Shown here in pieces: positions 3,773-12,028 of a DNA stretch of 37,051 nucleotides. Position 1 is the stretch's first letter; every line of letters starts with the position of its first letter. This stretch comes from Moorena bouillonii PNG (GTDB taxonomy: Bacteria > Cyanobacteriota > Cyanobacteriia > Cyanobacteriales > Coleofasciculaceae), in the NCBI RefSeq assembly GCF_001942495.1, contig NZ_MKZS01000001.1, forward strand, positions 6,988,683 to 7,025,733. The letters run 5' to 3'. The notes under the pieces were generated by a model. It was not told where the DNA came from. It did no database searches and saw only the letters and a program-made list of their open reading frames with translations. The position numbers and the translations under genes are program-made.

Positions 3773-4510
3773 ATGTACACTGCCCCGCTGTTTAGCGATC
3801 GCGCTGATGCCGGTGAGCAGCTCGCTCAAGCACTTATCCCCCTGGTGAGCAAGCTGCACGCTACAGGTATTGATGCAACGCCTATTGTATATGCACTACC
3901 TCGGGGGGGTATCCCAGTAGCAGCACCAGTAGCTCGGGCACTGGATTGTCCACTAGATATTGTAGTGGCAAAAAAAATTACCACGGCTCGCAACCCAGAA
4001 TTAGCAATCGGTGCGGTGACTTCCTCGGGAGTTGTACTTTGGTCTGGGCAAAGGCGATGGCGAAACAAAAATGCTCAATGGCAGGAAATAGTATTAGCTC
4101 AAGCTCAAGAAAAAGCCCAAGCTCAGCTAGCTCAACTGCAACCGGGTTGTCCGAAAACCAATCCTACTGGTGCCCTAGCGTTGCTGGTTGATGATGGCAT
4201 TGCTACTGGAATGACTATAGCAGCAGCAACGGAAGCAGTAAAAGCCCACAATCCAGCACAGGTTTGGATTTGCACACCAGTGGCACCAGGAGGATTAATA
4301 CCCTGGTTATCACAATGGTGCGATCGCATGGTGATCTTACGGACACCGGAACCCTTTCTAAGTGTCAGCCGCTTCTACCTCAAATTTCCTCAAGTTAAAA
4401 CCGAGGAAGCTCTAAGCTATTTACAGGAGATTGGGTGGGTCGGCGGGGTTTCCCCCGCTTCGCCCCCTAAGCACCGTGCGAGCAAGTCTCCAAGCACACG
4501 GCGCACCTAA
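3773..4510 (+). CDS. phosphoribosyltransferase with intron-derived C-terminus
   Basis: This is a type I phosphoribosyltransferase-fold protein. The PRPP-binding loop is visible as LLVDDGIATGMTIAAA, and the N-terminal half has VYALPRGGIPVAAPVARAL and a VVAKKI segment. Such PRTase-fold proteins in bacteria are often annotated only as phosphoribosyltransferase; the base or acceptor is unknown. The start is supported by GGAGG five bases upstream. The gene is broken at codon 221 by group II intron A in antisense orientation. Native residues end at LQEI (residue 220), and the next 25 residues (GWVGGVSPA... to RRT) are read from the antisense of intron domains VI and V. The original end, reconstructed from flanking exon pieces at 7136-7146 and 11712-11728, was GLTVSDYPD. 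The fold core is complete, so the altered protein may still work. Confidence 0.85.
   Translation: MYTAPLFSDRADAGEQLAQALIPLVSKLHATGIDATPIVYALPRGGIPVAAPVARALDCPLDIVVAKKITTARNPELAIGAVTSSGVVLWSGQRRWRNKNAQWQEIVLAQAQEKAQAQLAQLQPGCPKTNPTGALALLVDDGIATGMTIAAATEAVKAHNPAQVWICTPVAPGGLIPWLSQWCDRMVILRTPEPFLSVSRFYLKFPQVKTEEALSYLQEIGWVGGVSPASPPKHRASKSPSTRRT
4471..4506 (-). other. domain V of group II intron A
   Basis: On the minus strand GCGCCGTGTGC pairs with GCACGGTGC around a bulged GGAGACTTGCTC section, the characteristic domain V hairpin. It carries a CGC-type catalytic triad. Domain VI follows immediately, with a GGGG-GAAA-CCCC stem and the 3' end at 4435. Confidence 0.75.
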
Positions 4511-4537
4511 TTCCTTTGGAACACGTTATTTTAGCGA

Positions 4538-6361
4538 CTACTTTTTCTTCGATTTCCGGTTTTGTGCCTTTTGGTTTTTGTTCCGGTTCTTAGAGGGTGT
4601 TTTGAACCCTTTCCTTAACATCTTTTGGATTTCGGGTTTTGTCGCACCCAAGGCATGTATGGAGTAGTGGCAGTCTTCGTGTAGATAGATTAGGTTATCA
4701 TATTTATCAAGACCACCTAGTTGTTTGGGAATAATGTGGTGTAGATGCACATTGTTGTATTCCCCTAGGTTTTGCTGACAGACGGGGCATTGGTATCCTT
4801 GTCTGTTAGCTATTTTGTCTTTTCCGGTGGTTAGTCTCTTCTTGGCTGTTTTTTCACTTTGTTTCTCTTCCCTTTCTTTCCAATACTCGGTGAGTGTTGG
4901 ATTGTCGGGGGATTTATCGTATGAAACTAGTATATGTCTCTGGATTGGTGTCCAGGCAAACTTTTCCAAGTAGATTTCTCCGTCTCCAAATACCCAATTA
5001 TCCTCTCTTCCTGGGCAATATTTTCCGAAATATTTCTCGTTTACCCAGTCGTGAGATTTTTTGGCGTGCTTCCGTCTTGCCCACCTCTGTAACTTCCAGA
5101 ACATGTATGAATCTAATTCAGAAAAGATTTCTTTGGATACCGTGCCATTGTGATAATTGCTCCATCCCCTTACTATTGAGTTGATTTTGCCAATTAACGT
5201 TCTCTGGGTTAGGCTTTTTCCTCTTTTGAATTCTTCTCTTAATTTCTTCTTGATTTTGTCTACACTTTTCCCGGAAGGTTTGATTAGGGTTATTAGCCCT
5301 GTCTTTTTCCCTGATGTTTGATACTTCCTGAAGTTCCATCCTAAAAAGTCAAATCCTTTGGTTAGATGGCTTATCTTTGTTTTCTCCTCAGACAATGTTA
5401 GTCCTTTTTTGGATAACCATTTCGTTGTGATTTCCTTAGCTTTCGCTGCATCTTCCTCGCTTTCGGTTAGGATAACGAAGTCATCGGCAAAGCGGATGTA
5501 TGTCCTTGGAGATATGTTGGCCCACCAACCTCCGTCTTTGCGCCTTTTATCTCTTCTCCATTTGTACTCTATACCCAATTCCTCCTCTAGTCCGTGTAGG
5601 GCGATATTAGCCAGTAATGGACTTATTATTCCGCCTTGGGGAGTTCCTTCCTCTGTGTTGTAGTATACGTCTTTATCGACGTATCCAGCCTTAAGCCAAT
5701 CCTTGATCAGGTTGGTTGCTGGGAAGTTCCCTATGGCTTCTAGGAGAGGTAGGTGTGCTATGTTGTCGAAGCATCCTGAGATGTCCGCATCTAGTACCCA
5801 CCATTTCCTGTTATTTTCTCCATTGATGTTTTGGAATATCCTTTGTCTTGCGTCATGGGTACTCCTACCCGGTCTAAATCCGTATGATACAGGTTCAAAC
5901 CTGGCTTCCCATGATGGTTCTAGTGCATTTTTGACGATGCCTTGTAGACATCTATCCGTGATGCTTGGTATTCCTAGTGGCCTTTTCTTCCCGTTGGACT
6001 TGGGGATGTAGATGCGTTTGGTTGGGATGGGTTTCCAGGCTTTATAGTTTCTGAGGGAATCGACCATTTCCCCTCTTTCCGCCGGTGTTATCTTGGTCTG
6101 TTTATCTATTCCTGCGGTCTTTTTTCCACTATTTATTTGAGTAGCCTGTTTGACAGAAGTGAGTGTATTGGAGTGGCTACGAAGCATTAACCTTTGTAGC
6201 TTATTGACTTTCTTCCAATTGCCTTCACGTGTCGCCTTGAAAATTCTACGTCTAAGTTTCCTGACCATCCTATAGGCACGTTTCCAATCGGTTGTGTGCC
6301 AGTCGGTGGCTTGTTTAGTTACGATACCGTTACCCGAAGGTTTCGATTCAATCTTTTCCAT
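4538..6361 (-). CDS. ltrA-like: group II intron A reverse transcriptase/maturase with HNH
   Basis: This multifunctional intron-encoded protein of about 607 residues helps splicing and drives retrohoming. Residues near 80-300 form the reverse transcriptase: KKTAGID, SYGFRPGRSTHDA, DADISGCFDNI, EEGTPQGGIISPLLANI and the active site RFADDFVIL (FADD, about residue 293 counted from the upstream TTG). The maturase X domain follows, with IVRGWSNYHNG. The C-terminus is an HNH endonuclease, with CPVCQQNLGEY, HLHHIIPKQLGG and CHYSIHAL. I chose the ATG at 6361; a TTG two codons upstream is an alternative. All catalytic residues appear present, so the intron may be mobile. Confidence 0.93.
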   Translation of the reverse strand: MEKIESKPSGNGIVTKQATDWHTTDWKRAYRMVRKLRRRIFKATREGNWKKVNKLQRLMLRSHSNTLTSVKQATQINSGKKTAGIDKQTKITPAERGEMVDSLRNYKAWKPIPTKRIYIPKSNGKKRPLGIPSITDRCLQGIVKNALEPSWEARFEPVSYGFRPGRSTHDARQRIFQNINGENNRKWWVLDADISGCFDNIAHLPLLEAIGNFPATNLIKDWLKAGYVDKDVYYNTEEGTPQGGIISPLLANIALHGLEEELGIEYKWRRDKRRKDGGWWANISPRTYIRFADDFVILTESEEDAAKAKEITTKWLSKKGLTLSEEKTKISHLTKGFDFLGWNFRKYQTSGKKTGLITLIKPSGKSVDKIKKKLREEFKRGKSLTQRTLIGKINSIVRGWSNYHNGTVSKEIFSELDSYMFWKLQRWARRKHAKKSHDWVNEKYFGKYCPGREDNWVFGDGEIYLEKFAWTPIQRHILVSYDKSPDNPTLTEYWKEREEKQSEKTAKKRLTTGKDKIANRQGYQCPVCQQNLGEYNNVHLHHIIPKQLGGLDKYDNLIYLHEDCHYSIHALGATKPEIQKMLRKGFKTPSKNRNKNQKAQNRKSKKK

Positions 6362-7135
6362 GTACAATGTAGGTCTTATCGTATTATTTCCTTGACTCGG
6401 AATTAGTTCTGAAATTCAGCACTCTGCACGAGTTGAGGGATTTCCCTCTATCCAGTCAGTTATGCGGTTGTCCGTTTTCCTGTTTCCTTTCGGTCACTGG
6501 CTTTTGCTTGGTTCAGTCTTCTACCGGGCTGAGAGTTATACCGCTTCTTGGGATTTGGCTACCAATATCAATCGACCTAGATATTGGACTCAACCTCGGC
6601 TTACCCGGTTATGCTCATTAGAGGTGCGATTCTAAGGTTGCCGTCTCTACACCGAGTCCACTGTGGGATTCTGATTGCCCCGTCAAGGAGAGGCTAATCC
6701 GGGAGCTGTTATCCCCATTGTCGTTTGATCAGGGATATTGCTTATTACGATGCCTTATAACAACGGTTCCTAATTGTCAACCCTTTGATTCTTTCCCTGC
6801 CATTGGTCACCTTCCCGACATCTCAGTTTCTTTCTGGCTTTACCCTCTAGCTGTGAAACCCACTGATTCGGGAGTAACCTAGTCGTGAACCGGGTTATCC
6901 ATCTCAGTACGCTCCTTTGGGTGGGAACAAGACTGAATCCTAGTCTTGGAAAGGCTCTTACCCCTTTCACTCTGCATGAGCACCTTCATCGGTCGCCCCT
7001 TGACTGTAAACATACCAGAACTCAGGCTTTCAAGCAACTCCTGGTCGAGATGCCAGGAACGCCTAGACAGATGAGTGGGAGGCTTAACTCCAATTGCTGA
7101 CCACCACTCCTCCCTCAGGCAACAACAAATTGCAC

Positions 7136-7146
7136 CTTGACCGTTT
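7136..7146 (+). pseudogene. stranded 11-base exon of the phosphoribosyltransferase gene
   Basis: CTTGACCGTTT is all that separates intron A from intron C. It continues the phosphoribosyltransferase frame after GG at 4433-4434, reading Gly-Leu-Thr-Val and the first base of Ser. Its two halves serve as IBS1 for both introns: GTCAAG on the minus strand for A and CCGTTT on the plus strand for C, overlapping at position 7141. Confidence 0.85.
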
Positions 7147-8245
7147 GTGCGGCTTGCTCCAACTAGGAACCTAGAGAAACTCCAGGGGTATGAGTTGGGA
7201 GAATCGCGAGGATAACACCTCAAAATTCTTAACTATCTAACGGATGTGGGTGAAAATCCCACCCATGAGGAGACATGTGACTCCCTACCTGGCCACACCG
7301 AGAAAGCGACAACTTTCAGAGTGAAGCTGGCGACAGGGCACAATCAGACCGAAGCAGATAAGGACACTGGTGCTAAAGGGGAAGGTGACATGGGTAAACA
7401 GATTCTAGAAAAGTGTCTAACAAGGGAGCCACAATCTGAACAAAATATGTGGACTCTACTATCTCATTCTCACAGTGTTTTAAACGGGATAACTGTAAAC
7501 TCCGAGAAGATAGTAGGCAAAATGAATCGCCCTAAATCACCAGAATAATCCGATAGATGGAACAAGTAAAAACGACAGCATTAATAGGTCTGAGGATAGG
7601 TCGTCACCTCGGTAAGTTATGTCAAACTTAATCCCTACTGTCGGGTAGGATGCAGGCGTGCGATTCGTTGACTAGAAATCTTGCCCATCAAGGGTTTAGG
7701 AGGATTAGTCGCAAGGAAGAAAGAACCTTGACAACTTGATAACCATGATGGTGAAAGACCATCCCTCGTGAAATCCGAGTGACAGCCCTACCCTGGTTCA
7801 TGGGAACTAACAAAACCCATGGATTGAAAGCAAGGGTCGAACAGCGAAGCGGAACCAATCCAGGGAAAGTTAGTAGCAGGCAAAAGACTCATGGGTACGC
7901 AAGGAAGGCATGTTTGAATCATCGACACCTACACGTGGCGAAATGGATTGATACGCCACAGACAAAAAGTCAAACGGAATAAAGGATAGTTAGTTGCCCG
8001 CTTAACTATTGATTTCCCTAGAAATAAAATTCCCGGTGAACAATGCCGCCCTAAAAGTCTACAGAATGGTTATCAGGAACGAAGTAACCCCCACTTGTAC
8101 TCTCAGAAAGGTCGAACATTCTGAGTAGGTAGTTAACCGTAAGTCATCTGGGGGAGAGATAGAGTCAGAAGCCAATGCCTAGGGTAATACCTATGGATAT
8201 GCCAACGGACTCACGTTACAGGAATAGGTGTAGTTGTAAGTAGTA

Positions 8246-9946
8246 ATGAAGAAGTCTAAAACTCGGGGATTCAACCCACAGTCGGAATGGAACAAGGTCA
8301 ACTGGCGAAAGCTAGAAATAACCGTGTTCAAGTTACAAAAACGAATATACCAAGCCTCACAGCGTGACGATGTTCGCGTGGTACGTAAATTACAAAAGAC
8401 CCTGATGAAGTCTTGGTCAGCCAAAATGATTGCGGTCAGGCGGGTAACCCAAGAGAACAAAGGCAAGAAAACTGCTGGAATAGACGGGATTAAAACCTTA
8501 AATGGTAAACAGCGTCTGGCCTTAGTAGCTAACCTGGAAATCTCAAGAAAAGCCAAACCAACTAGAAGGGTATGGATTCCAAAACCCGGACAGAAGGAAA
8601 AACGCCCACTAGGAATCCCAACAATGCATGACCGCGCCCTACAAGCACTAGTCAAACAAGCACTAGAGCCTGAATGGGAGGCTAAATTTGAACCTAACTC
8701 CTATGGGTTCAGACCAGGACGCTCATGTCATGATGCCATCGAAGCAATATTTAATGGAATCTGCAAAAAACCTAAATGGGTACTAGACGCCGATATCTCC
8801 AAATGTTTCGATAAAATCAATCACGATGTTCTTCTCACGAAATTAAACACCTATCCATCCTTGAGGCGATTAATTAAATCTTGGTTAAAAGCTGGTGTGA
8901 TGGATAATAACACATTCTCAGAAACCGAAGAAGGCACACCACAAGGAGGAGTAATATCACCTCTCCTCGCGAACATAGCCCTTCATGGAATGGAAACAAT
9001 AATTAAGACTTATATCGGAAATAAAAAGAACAAAAAAGGAGAAAAACTAGGAAAAGCTCAAAAGATGAGAGGTATAAGTCTAATTAGATATGCGGATGAT
9101 TTTGTCATCATGCACAAAGACCAAACCATAATAGAAGAATGTCAGAGAATCATCAGTGAATGGCTAAAAGACATAGGGTTGGAATTAAAGCCCAGTAAGA
9201 CAAAGATAACTCACACTTCGGAAGGATTCAATTTCCTAGGATTCAACATCCGACAATATCCAGCCGGAAAAAACCATTCAAAACTAGGCTTTAAAACCAT
9301 CATCAAACCATCCAAGGAAAAAGTTCTAGAACACTATAGGCAGCTTGCTGACATAATCGACCGTCACAAAGCTGCCCCTCAGGCTGCCCTAATCAGCCGA
9401 CTCTCACCTGTCATACGAGGATGGTGTAATTACAACAAAGCTGTTTGTAGTAAAGAAACCTTCAAAGACCTCGAATGCATGCTCTGGAACAAACTCCAAA
9501 GATGGGGATACAGGCGACATCCAAACAAATCAAAAACCTGGGTAATCAATAAATATTGGGGAACCGTAGAAAAAGACAACTGGACGTTCACAGACGGAAA
9601 GAGTTACCTCTTGAAACATGCCAAAACGAAAATCGTCCGGCACATCAAAGTCAAGAACACCACAAGTCCATTCAACGGAAACTTAATATATTGGAATTCC
9701 AGAATGGGAAAACATCCTGAAATAAACAGTCAAAAAGGAAGACTACTTAAAAAACAAAAAGGAAAATGCTCCCATTGTGGCCTTACCTTCAGGGATGGAG
9801 ATTTAATAGAAAAACACCACATAATACCACGCGCACTCGGTGGAGAAGACCTAGACAAAAATATGGAACTACTCCACCTGCATTGTCACGATGTCAAACA
9901 TGGAACGAAATCTAATTCACTGAATCTAGATGAAAATCCATTCTAG
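8246..9946 (+). CDS. ltrA-like: group II intron B reverse transcriptase/maturase with HNH
   Basis: The 566-residue intron-encoded protein has KKTAGIDG, NSYGFRPGRSCHDA, LDADISKCFDKI, GTPQGGVISPLLANI and the RT active site RYADDFVIM (YADD at residues 282-285). The maturase domain contains PVIRGWCNYNKA. The C-terminal HNH module has CSHCGLTF, KHHIIPRALGGED and LHCHDVKHG. The start ATG at 8246 is the first Met of the conserved N-terminus. Apparent catalytic residues are all present. It is clearly related to the proteins of introns A and C but not a recent copy of either, since the sequences differ throughout. Confidence 0.94.
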   Translation: MKKSKTRGFNPQSEWNKVNWRKLEITVFKLQKRIYQASQRDDVRVVRKLQKTLMKSWSAKMIAVRRVTQENKGKKTAGIDGIKTLNGKQRLALVANLEISRKAKPTRRVWIPKPGQKEKRPLGIPTMHDRALQALVKQALEPEWEAKFEPNSYGFRPGRSCHDAIEAIFNGICKKPKWVLDADISKCFDKINHDVLLTKLNTYPSLRRLIKSWLKAGVMDNNTFSETEEGTPQGGVISPLLANIALHGMETIIKTYIGNKKNKKGEKLGKAQKMRGISLIRYADDFVIMHKDQTIIEECQRIISEWLKDIGLELKPSKTKITHTSEGFNFLGFNIRQYPAGKNHSKLGFKTIIKPSKEKVLEHYRQLADIIDRHKAAPQAALISRLSPVIRGWCNYNKAVCSKETFKDLECMLWNKLQRWGYRRHPNKSKTWVINKYWGTVEKDNWTFTDGKSYLLKHAKTKIVRHIKVKNTTSPFNGNLIYWNSRMGKHPEINSQKGRLLKKQKGKCSHCGLTFRDGDLIEKHHIIPRALGGEDLDKNMELLHLHCHDVKHGTKSNSLNLDENPF

Positions 9947-9979
9947 AGGTGCCACTGACAAGGATTGTACTGTAATGAG

Positions 9980-10013
9980 GAGCCGGATGAGGGGAAACTT
10001 TCACGTCCGGTTC
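9980..10013 (+). other. domain V of group II intron B
   Basis: GAGCCGGATGA pairs with TCACGTCCGGTTC around GGGGAAACTT, a standard 34-base domain V with an AGC catalytic triad. Domain VI follows to 10057. Confidence 0.85.
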
Positions 10014-10114
10014 TGGAGACGAGTCAGCTGTGAGGTGACTCCCTGGCTTAGTTTAATGGAAACTGCCTGCGGGTATCCAGAATACACAAATCAACGAAGA
10101 GTACAGGTAGACAC

Positions 10115-11629
10115 ATGTCAAACCGATATAGTGACCTATGGAAAAGACAAAATTGGAAACAACTCCGACGGAACCTTTTTCGCCTACAGAGAAGAGTGTA
10201 CAAAGCAGTTCGAAACGGTGACTTGAGGAAAGCTCGGTCTCTACAAAAACTGATTCTGAAATCTCGCGCAGCACAACTTCTAGCCATCCGTCAAGTGACA
10301 CAGCTCAATAAAGGCAAGAAGACTGCCGGTGTGGATGGGAAGACAGCCCTAACATACAAAGAGCGAATTGAACTACTGTATGAATTGAACCACTATGGCC
10401 TTGTCTGGAAACATAGCGGACTTCGCGAAATCCCAATTCCAAAAAAGAATGGGAAAGTAAGGATTCTTAAGGTACCCACAATCGCCGATAGAGCATGGCA
10501 ATGTCTAGCCAAATACGCTCTCGAACCCGCCCACGAAGCAACTTTTCACGCCCGGAGTTACGGGTTTAGGACTGGACGCAGTGCCCATGATGCCCAAAAA
10601 CATGTGTTCAATAATTTAAGGTCACAATCCAATGGCATCAATAAGAGAGTAATTGAATTAGATATTAAAAAGTGTTTTGACCGTATCTCCCATAAGTCCA
10701 TCATGGATAGATTGCTAGCCCCAGCTAGTCTGAAGAAGGGGATTTTCAGATGTTTAAAAGCTGGCATCAATCCGGAATTCCCTGAACAAGGAACACCCCA
10801 AGGAGGTGTGGTTAGCCCACTCTTAGCCAACATTGCACTGGATGGAATAGAGGCAATTCACCCCAGCGTCCGATATGCAGACGACATGGTGATATTCCTC
10901 AAACCAGAGGATAACGCAGAAAAGGTACTGGACAAAATCAAGACCTTTTTAGCAGAACGTGAGATGGAAATCAGTCAAGAAAAGACCAAGATTACCAAAA
11001 CGACAGATGGCTTTGACTTCCTAGGTTGGAGAATGTATGTTCAAAAACATAACGGAAAATTCCGGAGTATTCCCTCAGTGGAAAATCACCGAAGTATCCG
11101 AAAGAAGATTAAAACCATAGTCAACAACTCGAATTATGGCGCTGAAGTAAAGGCACAAAAACTAGCCCCCGTGATCAGGGGATGGAGAAACTACCACAAA
11201 TGGTGTGACATGAGCAGCGCAAGAGATTCCTTGTGGTTCATGAACAAGACCGCCAACCGTAAATTCCGAAAAGAGAAGAAAGTCAACAGGTATAAAGCCA
11301 ACAAACTTTGTAACAAGGCTTTGCCATCCGTAGGATACGAACAGAACGGACACAAAATGGTAGCAGGAACCAACTCCCCCTATAACGGGAAAACAGTGTA
11401 CTGGAGTCAAAGAAACTCCAAGCTATACAGTGATGCTACAGCAATAGCCTTGAAAAGGCAACGCCATTCCTGTGGACATTGTGGATTAAAGTTCATAGAC
11501 GAAGAGTCCGTGCAACTCCATCACATAGATGGGAACCACGACAACTGGAAGTCTAAGAACCTAATGGCAGTACATCACAGCTGTCACCAACAAATCCACT
11601 GGAGCAAACCGAAAGGACAGGATATCTAG
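10115..11629 (+). CDS. ltrA-like: group II intron C reverse transcriptase/maturase with HNH
   Basis: The 504-residue intron-encoded protein starts at the ATG at 10115, 57 bases after intron B. RT motifs are KKTAGVDGK, RSYGFRTGRSAHDA, LDIKKCFDRI, GTPQGGVVSPLLANIAL and VRYADDMVIF (YADD at 254-257). The maturase region has APVIRGWRNYHKW. The HNH part has CGHCGLKF, LHHIDGNHDN and HHSCHQQIHW. It is shorter than the other two, mainly between RT motifs, but shows no frameshift or missing motif. Intron B sits upstream of the start and leaves this protein intact, although B must be removed or tolerated for the intron C RNA to fold. Confidence 0.94.
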   Translation: MSNRYSDLWKRQNWKQLRRNLFRLQRRVYKAVRNGDLRKARSLQKLILKSRAAQLLAIRQVTQLNKGKKTAGVDGKTALTYKERIELLYELNHYGLVWKHSGLREIPIPKKNGKVRILKVPTIADRAWQCLAKYALEPAHEATFHARSYGFRTGRSAHDAQKHVFNNLRSQSNGINKRVIELDIKKCFDRISHKSIMDRLLAPASLKKGIFRCLKAGINPEFPEQGTPQGGVVSPLLANIALDGIEAIHPSVRYADDMVIFLKPEDNAEKVLDKIKTFLAEREMEISQEKTKITKTTDGFDFLGWRMYVQKHNGKFRSIPSVENHRSIRKKIKTIVNNSNYGAEVKAQKLAPVIRGWRNYHKWCDMSSARDSLWFMNKTANRKFRKEKKVNRYKANKLCNKALPSVGYEQNGHKMVAGTNSPYNGKTVYWSQRNSKLYSDATAIALKRQRHSCGHCGLKFIDEESVQLHHIDGNHDNWKSKNLMAVHHSCHQQIHWSKPKGQDI

Positions 11630-11663
11630 GAGCCGTATGCGGTGAAAGTCGCACGTACGGATT
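11630..11663 (+). other. domain V of group II intron C
   Basis: GAGCCGTATGCGGTGAAAG followed by TCGCACGTACGGATT is a textbook domain V hairpin with an AGC triad, directly after the maturase stop. Domain VI (GAGAGGTGCC...) and the AC end at 11711 follow. Confidence 0.9.
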
Positions 11664-11711
11664 TGAAGGAGAGGTGCCCTGGGTAATACCAGGCATCGAC
11701 TCTAACTATAC

Positions 11712-11728
11712 CGGATTATCCCGATTAA
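11712..11728 (+). pseudogene. displaced last exon of the phosphoribosyltransferase gene
   Basis: CGGATTATCCCGATTAA completes the frame interrupted at 4434 and 7146: Ser-Asp-Tyr-Pro-Asp and a TAA stop. It is the original end of the gene, now 7.3 kb away. Confidence 0.82.
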
Positions 11729-12028
11729 TTACGGTTTAAGAGTATCTCAAATCCCCCAACCCAGCGCGGTGATGGCAAATGTCCTACTGGGGCTTGGAGT
11801 TGGAACTCAAAGTCTTGATCTCGAAGATGGGAGTTGTGAAGGGGCCAGCTGATGGAATTGACCTAAGGTCACGCTACGCGAAGGCAAAACCTATAGTAAC
11901 GAAAGTTGTTAGTTATAGCGCTACGGGCTGGGAATAGGGAAGATTCCTGTTATGAGTTCCCTGTTCTGAGTTGCCTGTTCAACACTTATGGGATAATTGA
12001 TCGCTCTTTATCTTACTTATTGCTGAGT
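11729..12028. other. intergenic region, no gene seen
   Basis: This stretch holds a copy of the dispersed CACGCTACGCGAA motif (11870-11882) and a GTTCCCTGTTC-type tract near 11950-11980. The 11755-11840 part is non-repetitive and rather GC-rich compared with nearby intergenic DNA, but I recognise no RNA or open frame in it. Confidence 0.5.

Follow-up and report, generated by a model that had tools for sequence, protein, structure and literature searches.

We analysed a 37,051-nucleotide (nt) stretch of the genome of Moorena bouillonii PNG (NZ_MKZS01000001.1, 6,988,683–7,025,733 of the forward strand; below, the window, in which positions are counted) and found one complete group II intron, intron B, lodged within another, intron C. 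We read the pair as a bacterial twintron, in which C would have homed into the remnant of a TnpB-like gene, B would later have entered the loop of a hairpin in C, and B would be spliced out first. We put the probability of this reading at about 0.8. A preliminary description of the window, made from its letters, had likewise proposed a nest of two complete group II introns, and the empty insertion sites and the behaviour of the 5' domains described below support that proposal.

Intron B within a hairpin of intron C

Removal of B in silico leaves a C intron (7147–7657 joined to 10058–11706) that aligns unbroken, end to end, with introns at three other loci of the same genome (L032, L033 and L034), and the bounds first given for B, 7658–10057 inside C, are confirmed. 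The C sequence flanking the B junction aligns through in all nine loci L031–L039 of this genome, and these empty sites hold a short loop, e.g. AAACT, where the window has B. A sister species (G002, locus L120) also has an empty site with an identical hairpin, GCAGGC-GGAAACT-GCCTGC. Thus, B in C is a twintron in the sense of a complete intron within a complete intron whose uninterrupted form is known. The preliminary description had named what would speak against it, namely relatives whose C lacks the insertion site, or a segment 7147–7657 that does not form the 5' domains of C; when checked, the outcome favoured nesting.

The start of C at 7147 stands, whereas its end had been set 5 nt too far, at 11711; paralogue ends place it at 11706 (..GACTCTAAC), the paralogues finishing in ..CTCTAAY or ..CCGTAAY. 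The C copies share the 5' end GTGCGGCT, while the B paralogues start with GTGCGAYYCGTT and finish with CTTAGTTTAAT. Bacterial group II introns have a consensus 5' GUGYG start and 3' AY end. Both B and C start with GTGCG and end in AT and AC, respectively, all shared with their paralogues, and each has its own domain V, as first described. Domains V and VI (DV and DVI) were identified with the Rfam model RF00029, which has a gathering score of 40 (Table 1). The 8.3-Mb genome that contains the window has at least 33 matches to this model, 31 of them above the cut-off, among the best 150 of 384 candidates scored. Among the Rfam matches listed for positions 700–3100 of L034 and 4300–11900 of the window, none was to a family for domains I–IV. 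The introns are presumably CL-like (IIB).

Both maturases are full length. That of B has reverse transcriptase (RT), X and HNH domains all above cut-off and scores 355 bits against the NCBIfam group II RT/maturase model. The C maturase is as long as its intact paralogues, and its RT and X domains are above cut-off. However, its HNH domain, which the preliminary description had assigned to both proteins, scores 16.2 bits against a Pfam cut-off of 21.4, and the protein scores 287 bits against the NCBIfam cut-off of 300; its C-terminus aligns with the B maturase through the HNH region. Over 552 aligned positions the two maturases share 36% identity, by which measure B belongs to a different intron family than C.

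We next compared the hairpin around the B junction across 29 C-type rows, all of them distinct, drawn from four genomes (G000, the genome of the window, to G003). The rows derive from 43 query matches, with the window's matches set aside and its own row included, rows with N or duplicates removed, and five matches left out as too short (L108, L109, L115 and L039 twice). The inner 6 base pairs, GCAGGC/GCCTGC in the window, were parsed in 27 of the 29 rows, giving 17 distinct arm pairs in which all 102 of 102 positions form standard pairs. None of 2000 shuffles reached this value (best shuffle, 0.912; all shuffle controls in this study ignore kinship among intron copies), and the two rows missed by the parsing expression also pair 6/6. 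The preliminary description had B splitting one of the hairpins of C. The inner part of this hairpin is borne out, but the outer GGAT/ATCC pairing is weaker, since rows with AGAT retain 3/4 pairs and the ATCC strand is explained at least equally well as the 5' strand of the domain IV (DIV) basal stem.

The domain names used for C are our reading and follow the usual group II architecture. In the stem that closes the putative domain III (DIII; 7574–7578 with 7638–7642), 8 distinct arm pairs give 39/40 standard pairs, a value reached by 0/2000 shuffles. The putative DIV basal stem, GGTATC/GATATC, has 99/108 pairs when the best of nine registers is taken per row, which 15/2000 shuffles reach; this count keeps three rows parsed at the wrong place (L111, L121 and L135) and leaves out two rows without a 3' part. 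On this assignment, the hairpin that holds B in its apical loop would lie after DIII and before DIV, and the core helices of C would be left unsplit. As first noted, B lies just upstream of the C maturase gene. Its insertion point is 57 nt 5' of the start codon of that gene and, as judged from covariation, precedes the putative DIV basal stem.

Table 1 Positions of intron features in the window
Feature	Positions	Strand	Basis
Inner group II intron B	7658–10057	+	RF00029/RF04357 matches; absent from paralogues of C
B domains V and VI	9978–10057	+	RF00029, 57.5 bits
B maturase/reverse transcriptase, 566 aa	8246–9946	+	RVT_N, RVT_1, GIIM, HNH
B IBS2, GTAGG (inside C)	7645–7649	+	Guide pairing
B EBS2, CCTAC	7928–7932	+	5/5 with IBS2
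B EBS1, GCCCGC	7996–8001	+	5/6 with IBS1
Outer group II intron C	7147–11706 (5' part 7147–7657, 3' part 10058–11706)	+	RF00029 at 3' end; collinear with B-less paralogues; shared 5' and 3' ends
C domains V and VI	11628–11706	+	RF00029, 56.2 bits
C maturase/reverse transcriptase, 504 aa	10115–11629	+	RVT_N, RVT_1, GIIM; weak HNH
C IBS2, CCTTG	7135–7139	+	Guide pairing
C IBS1, CCGTTT	7141–7146	+	Guide pairing
C EBS2, CAAGG	7421–7425	+	5/5
C EBS1, AAACGG	7482–7487	+	6/6
C domain III (by reading)	7574–7642	+	Closing stem 7574–7578 with 7638–7642
C hairpin 5' arm, GCAGGC, also B IBS1	7652–7657	+	Covariation, guide pairing
C hairpin 3' arm, GCCTGC	10065–10070	+	Covariation
C DIV basal stem, 5' strand (by reading)	10072–10077	+	Pairs with 11621–11626, directly before DV
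Neighbouring group II intron A	4434–6998	−	RF00029 at 4506–4434, 48.5 bits; 5' end approximate, in G run; outside the nest
A maturase open reading frame	4538–6367	−	NCBIfam group II RT/maturase, 359 bits

Guide sequences and inner introns elsewhere in the genus

Group II introns recognise the intron-binding sites (IBS) of their 5' exon through exon-binding sites (EBS). We scanned paralogue columns against the copies' own 5' exons, which yielded one EBS1 and one EBS2 per family, and then compared these with shuffled exons at the exon offsets picked by that open scan. For C (12 copies), mean complementarity is 0.86 at EBS1 and 0.98 at EBS2 (shuffled maxima 0.67 and 0.69), and for B (8 copies) 0.96 and 1.00 (shuffled maxima 0.81 and 0.85), with 60 shuffles each. 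One C copy (L039, + strand, 614) and one B start (L046, − strand, 1062, with N upstream) entered the open scan but were left out of this comparison, and the L040 and L039 rows, which contain gaps or N, are absent at single positions. The pairings support homing of both B and C.

A search for the B junction covered 57 genomes including that of the window, with up to 14 candidates scored per genome, and its counts and absences are lower bounds. Junction-query bases 1–200 matched in two genomes, that of the window and G003, from the same genus. The two G003 matches are 94% and 93% identical. Both contigs stop 127 nt into B, and in each these 127 nt are 126/127 identical to the window and enter a C-type intron at the same point. 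The outer introns match C at 361/503 and 376/499 positions (72–75%) and each other at 417/506, and their 5' flanks differ. A further contig (G003:C457) has the last 58 nt of B at 100% identity, followed by a C-type 3' half with the arm GGGCAC; this is probably a third B-bearing outer intron in G003, since GGGCAC cannot pair with the GCAGCC of the two 5' halves. B thus appears to be carried by three outer introns in two genomes, and probably by a fourth. Its ends are near-identical at the same point while the outer introns have diverged, which makes B look like an inner intron that is specific to this hairpin and has spread recently.

Another genome, G001, contains inner introns at 4 of the 20 loci examined. 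At L123 (G001:C5:1070000-1088000), four introns are stacked in three levels over ~9.2 kb: C_y holds C_x, which in turn holds B1 at C position 415/416 and B2 at 2128/2129, in DVI. The B-type maturase frames of both inner introns are open, and by eye their guide sequences suit their own sites well, if imperfectly. B2 is 2374 bp long and 100% identical in L123, L124, L125 and L126, whereas the outer introns around it are 78–85% identical, except that those of L124 and L125 (G001:C4) are identical. There, two sites carry a 4539-bp composite that is 100% identical between them, with flanks that align at only 75% (89 positions) and 73% (145 positions); a twintron may here have moved as a unit.

Sixteen loci were examined in the genome of the window. 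In L035, a 100-N gap is bordered by both ends of B2, which sit at the same point of DVI, and L036 and L037 have the B2 5' end only. At L038, a C-type intron lies within a C-type intron, between the A and the TG of the maturase start codon. Candidate 'mini-B' introns of ~200 nt in L035–L037 were rejected, as their N runs are 100-N gaps (L036 is cut at the locus edge) and their visible ends are identical to B2. A doubled C intron at L039 was discounted, as a single N at its junction makes an assembly artefact likely. Separately, a ~100-nt repeat (GAAGTTACCG..GGTTTCATCTCCG) interrupts C-type introns in L037, L038, L039, L040 and L109, at two points in the 5' part, and looks like a small non-autonomous element.

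A further inner intron, D, is known from its two ends. In G003, seven contigs (L115, L122 and L143–L147) share the same terminal 127 nt, the 3' end of D, and all seven continue into the 3' half of DV plus DVI of another group II intron. A search of G003 with these 127 nt, without flanks, returned the seven and no further identical copy among the best 15 of 26 candidates scored, so that the counts are lower bounds. The D 5' end (127 nt, GCGCGACC) terminates three further contigs (L111, L149 and L121), each preceded by a DV 5' half ending in GAAAGT or GAAACT; as the search that recovered them used a C-type flank, they confirm the position but are no test of specificity. All examined D ends, seven 3' and three 5', thus map to one point of DV of other introns. 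The DV of D itself differs near this point. A pattern search for the D 5' junction that assumed a GTGYG start gave no matches; D begins with GCGCG. At C457, one of the seven, D lies inside the copy of B that is itself inside a C intron, again three levels. D-like matches also occur in 23 other genomes, and weaker ones in G003.

Proposed order of events and alternative explanations

What we read as the remnant of the end of a TnpB-like gene is present at window positions 7000–7097 and 11707–11751, and in L032 and L040, and copies of this gene carry B-type and C-type introns. The sequence on either side of C forms the 3' part of a repeat that is present, by our count, at nine places including the window. 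At L032 this repeat is preceded by an exon with a TnpB-like domain (PF07282, 36.8 bits); a B-type intron lies between the two, and by eye the exons join in frame. We therefore read the window as a probable stack of TnpB-like gene remnant, C and B.

We propose that C, as a mobile intron, homed by EBS/IBS pairing into this remnant, and that B, also mobile, arrived afterwards by homing into the C hairpin between DIII and DIV, at its apical loop. Because the 5' arm of the hairpin is IBS1 of B, the hairpin would be open while this arm pairs with EBS1 of B. Most likely, B would be excised first by its own maturase, an order suggested by the location of B and C on one strand and by analogy with the Trichodesmium twintron (PMC4649490). 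Ligation after B excision would then close the hairpin and hide IBS1, so that reversal in the RNA should be less likely; after closure, C would fold and splice. The B lineage would spread from one C intron to another, each time homing into this hairpin; the specialisation is claimed for this putative lineage, not for the B family.

Several observations weigh against this proposal. The C maturase scores under the Pfam (HNH) and NCBIfam cut-offs, and the IBS1–EBS1 match of B in the window is 5/6. The G003 sites have GCAGCC, which by our count matches 4/6 with the EBS1 of the window, the EBS1 of G003 lying outside the visible sequence. The between-species identity of B is that of its ends, 127 and 58 nt being visible in G003. 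In the genome of the window, B is found in one C hairpin, the nine other aligned C loci being empty, and the B-type relatives L041–L046 (full or partial) are flanked by non-C sequence in the flanks inspected. Finally, the hairpin duplex is stronger than the IBS1–EBS1 duplex (−10.2 versus −6.7 kcal/mol, for short fragments), and the hairpin could close around B. This last value agrees with an alternative in which B stays in place as a large apical loop that C tolerates, C splices with B inside and the composite can move as a unit. B lies outside the helices assigned to the C core, and the C-type intron with a DVI inner intron that is identical at two G001 sites looks as if a composite had moved. 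However, the G001 composite interrupts DVI and not the hairpin of B, and inner introns that are identical, or nearly so, in outer introns that have diverged show independent movement. In the Trichodesmium twintron, according to its authors, the inner intron most probably has to be removed first (PMC4649490). We regard the tolerated loop as unlikely, though worth keeping in view.

It is also conceivable, but quite improbable, that B landed in C and neither intron now splices. Several C-type maturases among the loci examined are broken into pieces, and C sits beside a gene remnant with no obvious selection for splicing. Against such a relic, both maturases in the window are full length, the DV/DVI regions of B and C score well, their EBS/IBS sequences match, and the visible ends of B are almost unchanged between species. 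A chimera of two intron copies, produced by recombination or assembly, is barely credible: the genome of the window does have 100-N scaffold gaps and odd intron loci (L039 and L040), but the window itself has zero N, the intron ends are exact and empty sites exist. The same junction is present over query bases 1–200, at 93–94%, in an independently assembled genome, and an assembly artefact is unlikely for this reason and for the lack of N in the window. Homing of B into C, with B leaving first, thus remains our preferred reading.

Neighbouring intron and known twintrons

Three full maturase reading frames lie close together in the window, as first described, but that of intron A belongs to a separate element on the minus strand, outside the nest. 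A 5' end of A at 7135 (GTGCAAT) was considered and dropped, since 7136–6999 belongs to the C-flank repeat and A starts at ~6998. The upstream phosphoribosyltransferase gene (from 3773) is 94–96% identical to three Moorena records. It was rejected as the host of C because its relatives L047–L049 match the window no further than 4429, each with a C-terminus of its own, and because the C flanks are a dispersed repeat. Relative to L047–L049, this gene loses its normal C-terminus at 4429–4434, and A follows directly in antisense.

In Euglena plastid twintrons, the introns are generally degenerate rather than mobile and maturase-bearing, and the inner intron of psbF lies in DV. They are organellar and in this differ from the Moorena nest, but share with it a group II intron in a group II intron, the inner one often being removed first (PMC4424553). 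Nested introns were known from Euglena plastids and a few bacteria, as the preliminary description stated, and twintrons are on record in both bacteria and archaea (PMC4649490, PMC2882425, PMC4424553). In Thermosynechococcus elongatus, like Moorena a cyanobacterium, the inner family (TeI3 introns) is inserted at a single conserved position within TeI4 outer introns that are dispersed, and inner copies are identical while outer copies have diverged (PMC2882425). That inner intron has no open reading frame and lies in DIV, flanked by the first and the second ATG of the outer frame (PMC2882425), whereas B encodes a full 566-aa maturase and sits in a hairpin placed before DIV, so that the nest is not of the T. 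elongatus type. The Tery_4732 twintron of Trichodesmium erythraeum, like Moorena a filamentous marine cyanobacterium, also has two distantly related introns, each with a maturase gene, and its sequential splicing has been demonstrated (PMC4649490). It differs in that the inner intron lies in domain I, the host gene is protein-coding and splicing was followed by reverse transcription PCR (PMC4649490). Methanosarcina acetivorans shows repeated site-specific homing of introns into introns, with up to five nested (PMC4424553), but it is an archaeon, and the title of the original report refers to homing into related intron open reading frames (PMC1370365), not to a non-coding hairpin, DV or DVI.

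Group II introns are already known in this genus: a figure legend in PMC8919778 maps them on Moorea producens NZ_CP017599.1, and the source also names elongatus and a Wolbachia endosymbiont. Among the matches listed in a search of the open literature on group II introns in Moorea/Moorena and on twintrons, no report of nests in the genus appeared, and nests there may have been under-counted. Nests recur within the genus, and the arrangement, first called unusual, is so mainly against the published record. Bacterial twintrons and intron-into-intron homing are known, and the Moorena nest is a variation on them.

We think it fairly probable that Moorena houses a guild of introns within introns, each on its own RNA element (the DIII–DIV hairpin for B, DVI for B2 and one exact DV point for D) and stacked up to three levels. 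Every intron with a standard DV would then be a possible host of D, and would have to shed D to work. If this is true, D homes to the catalytic DV, which no other part of the ribozyme exceeds in conservation. A parasite of a parasite can be traced copy by copy in bacteria, through identical inner introns, diverged outer introns, empty sites and matching guides. The splicing order of stacked ribozymes, the use of a hairpin that is also a guide target as a possible switch, and the movement of stacks as units become testable, the last of which bears on the origin of complex introns. Judged by their sequences, some of the introns in these genomes appear to exploit other introns as hosts.

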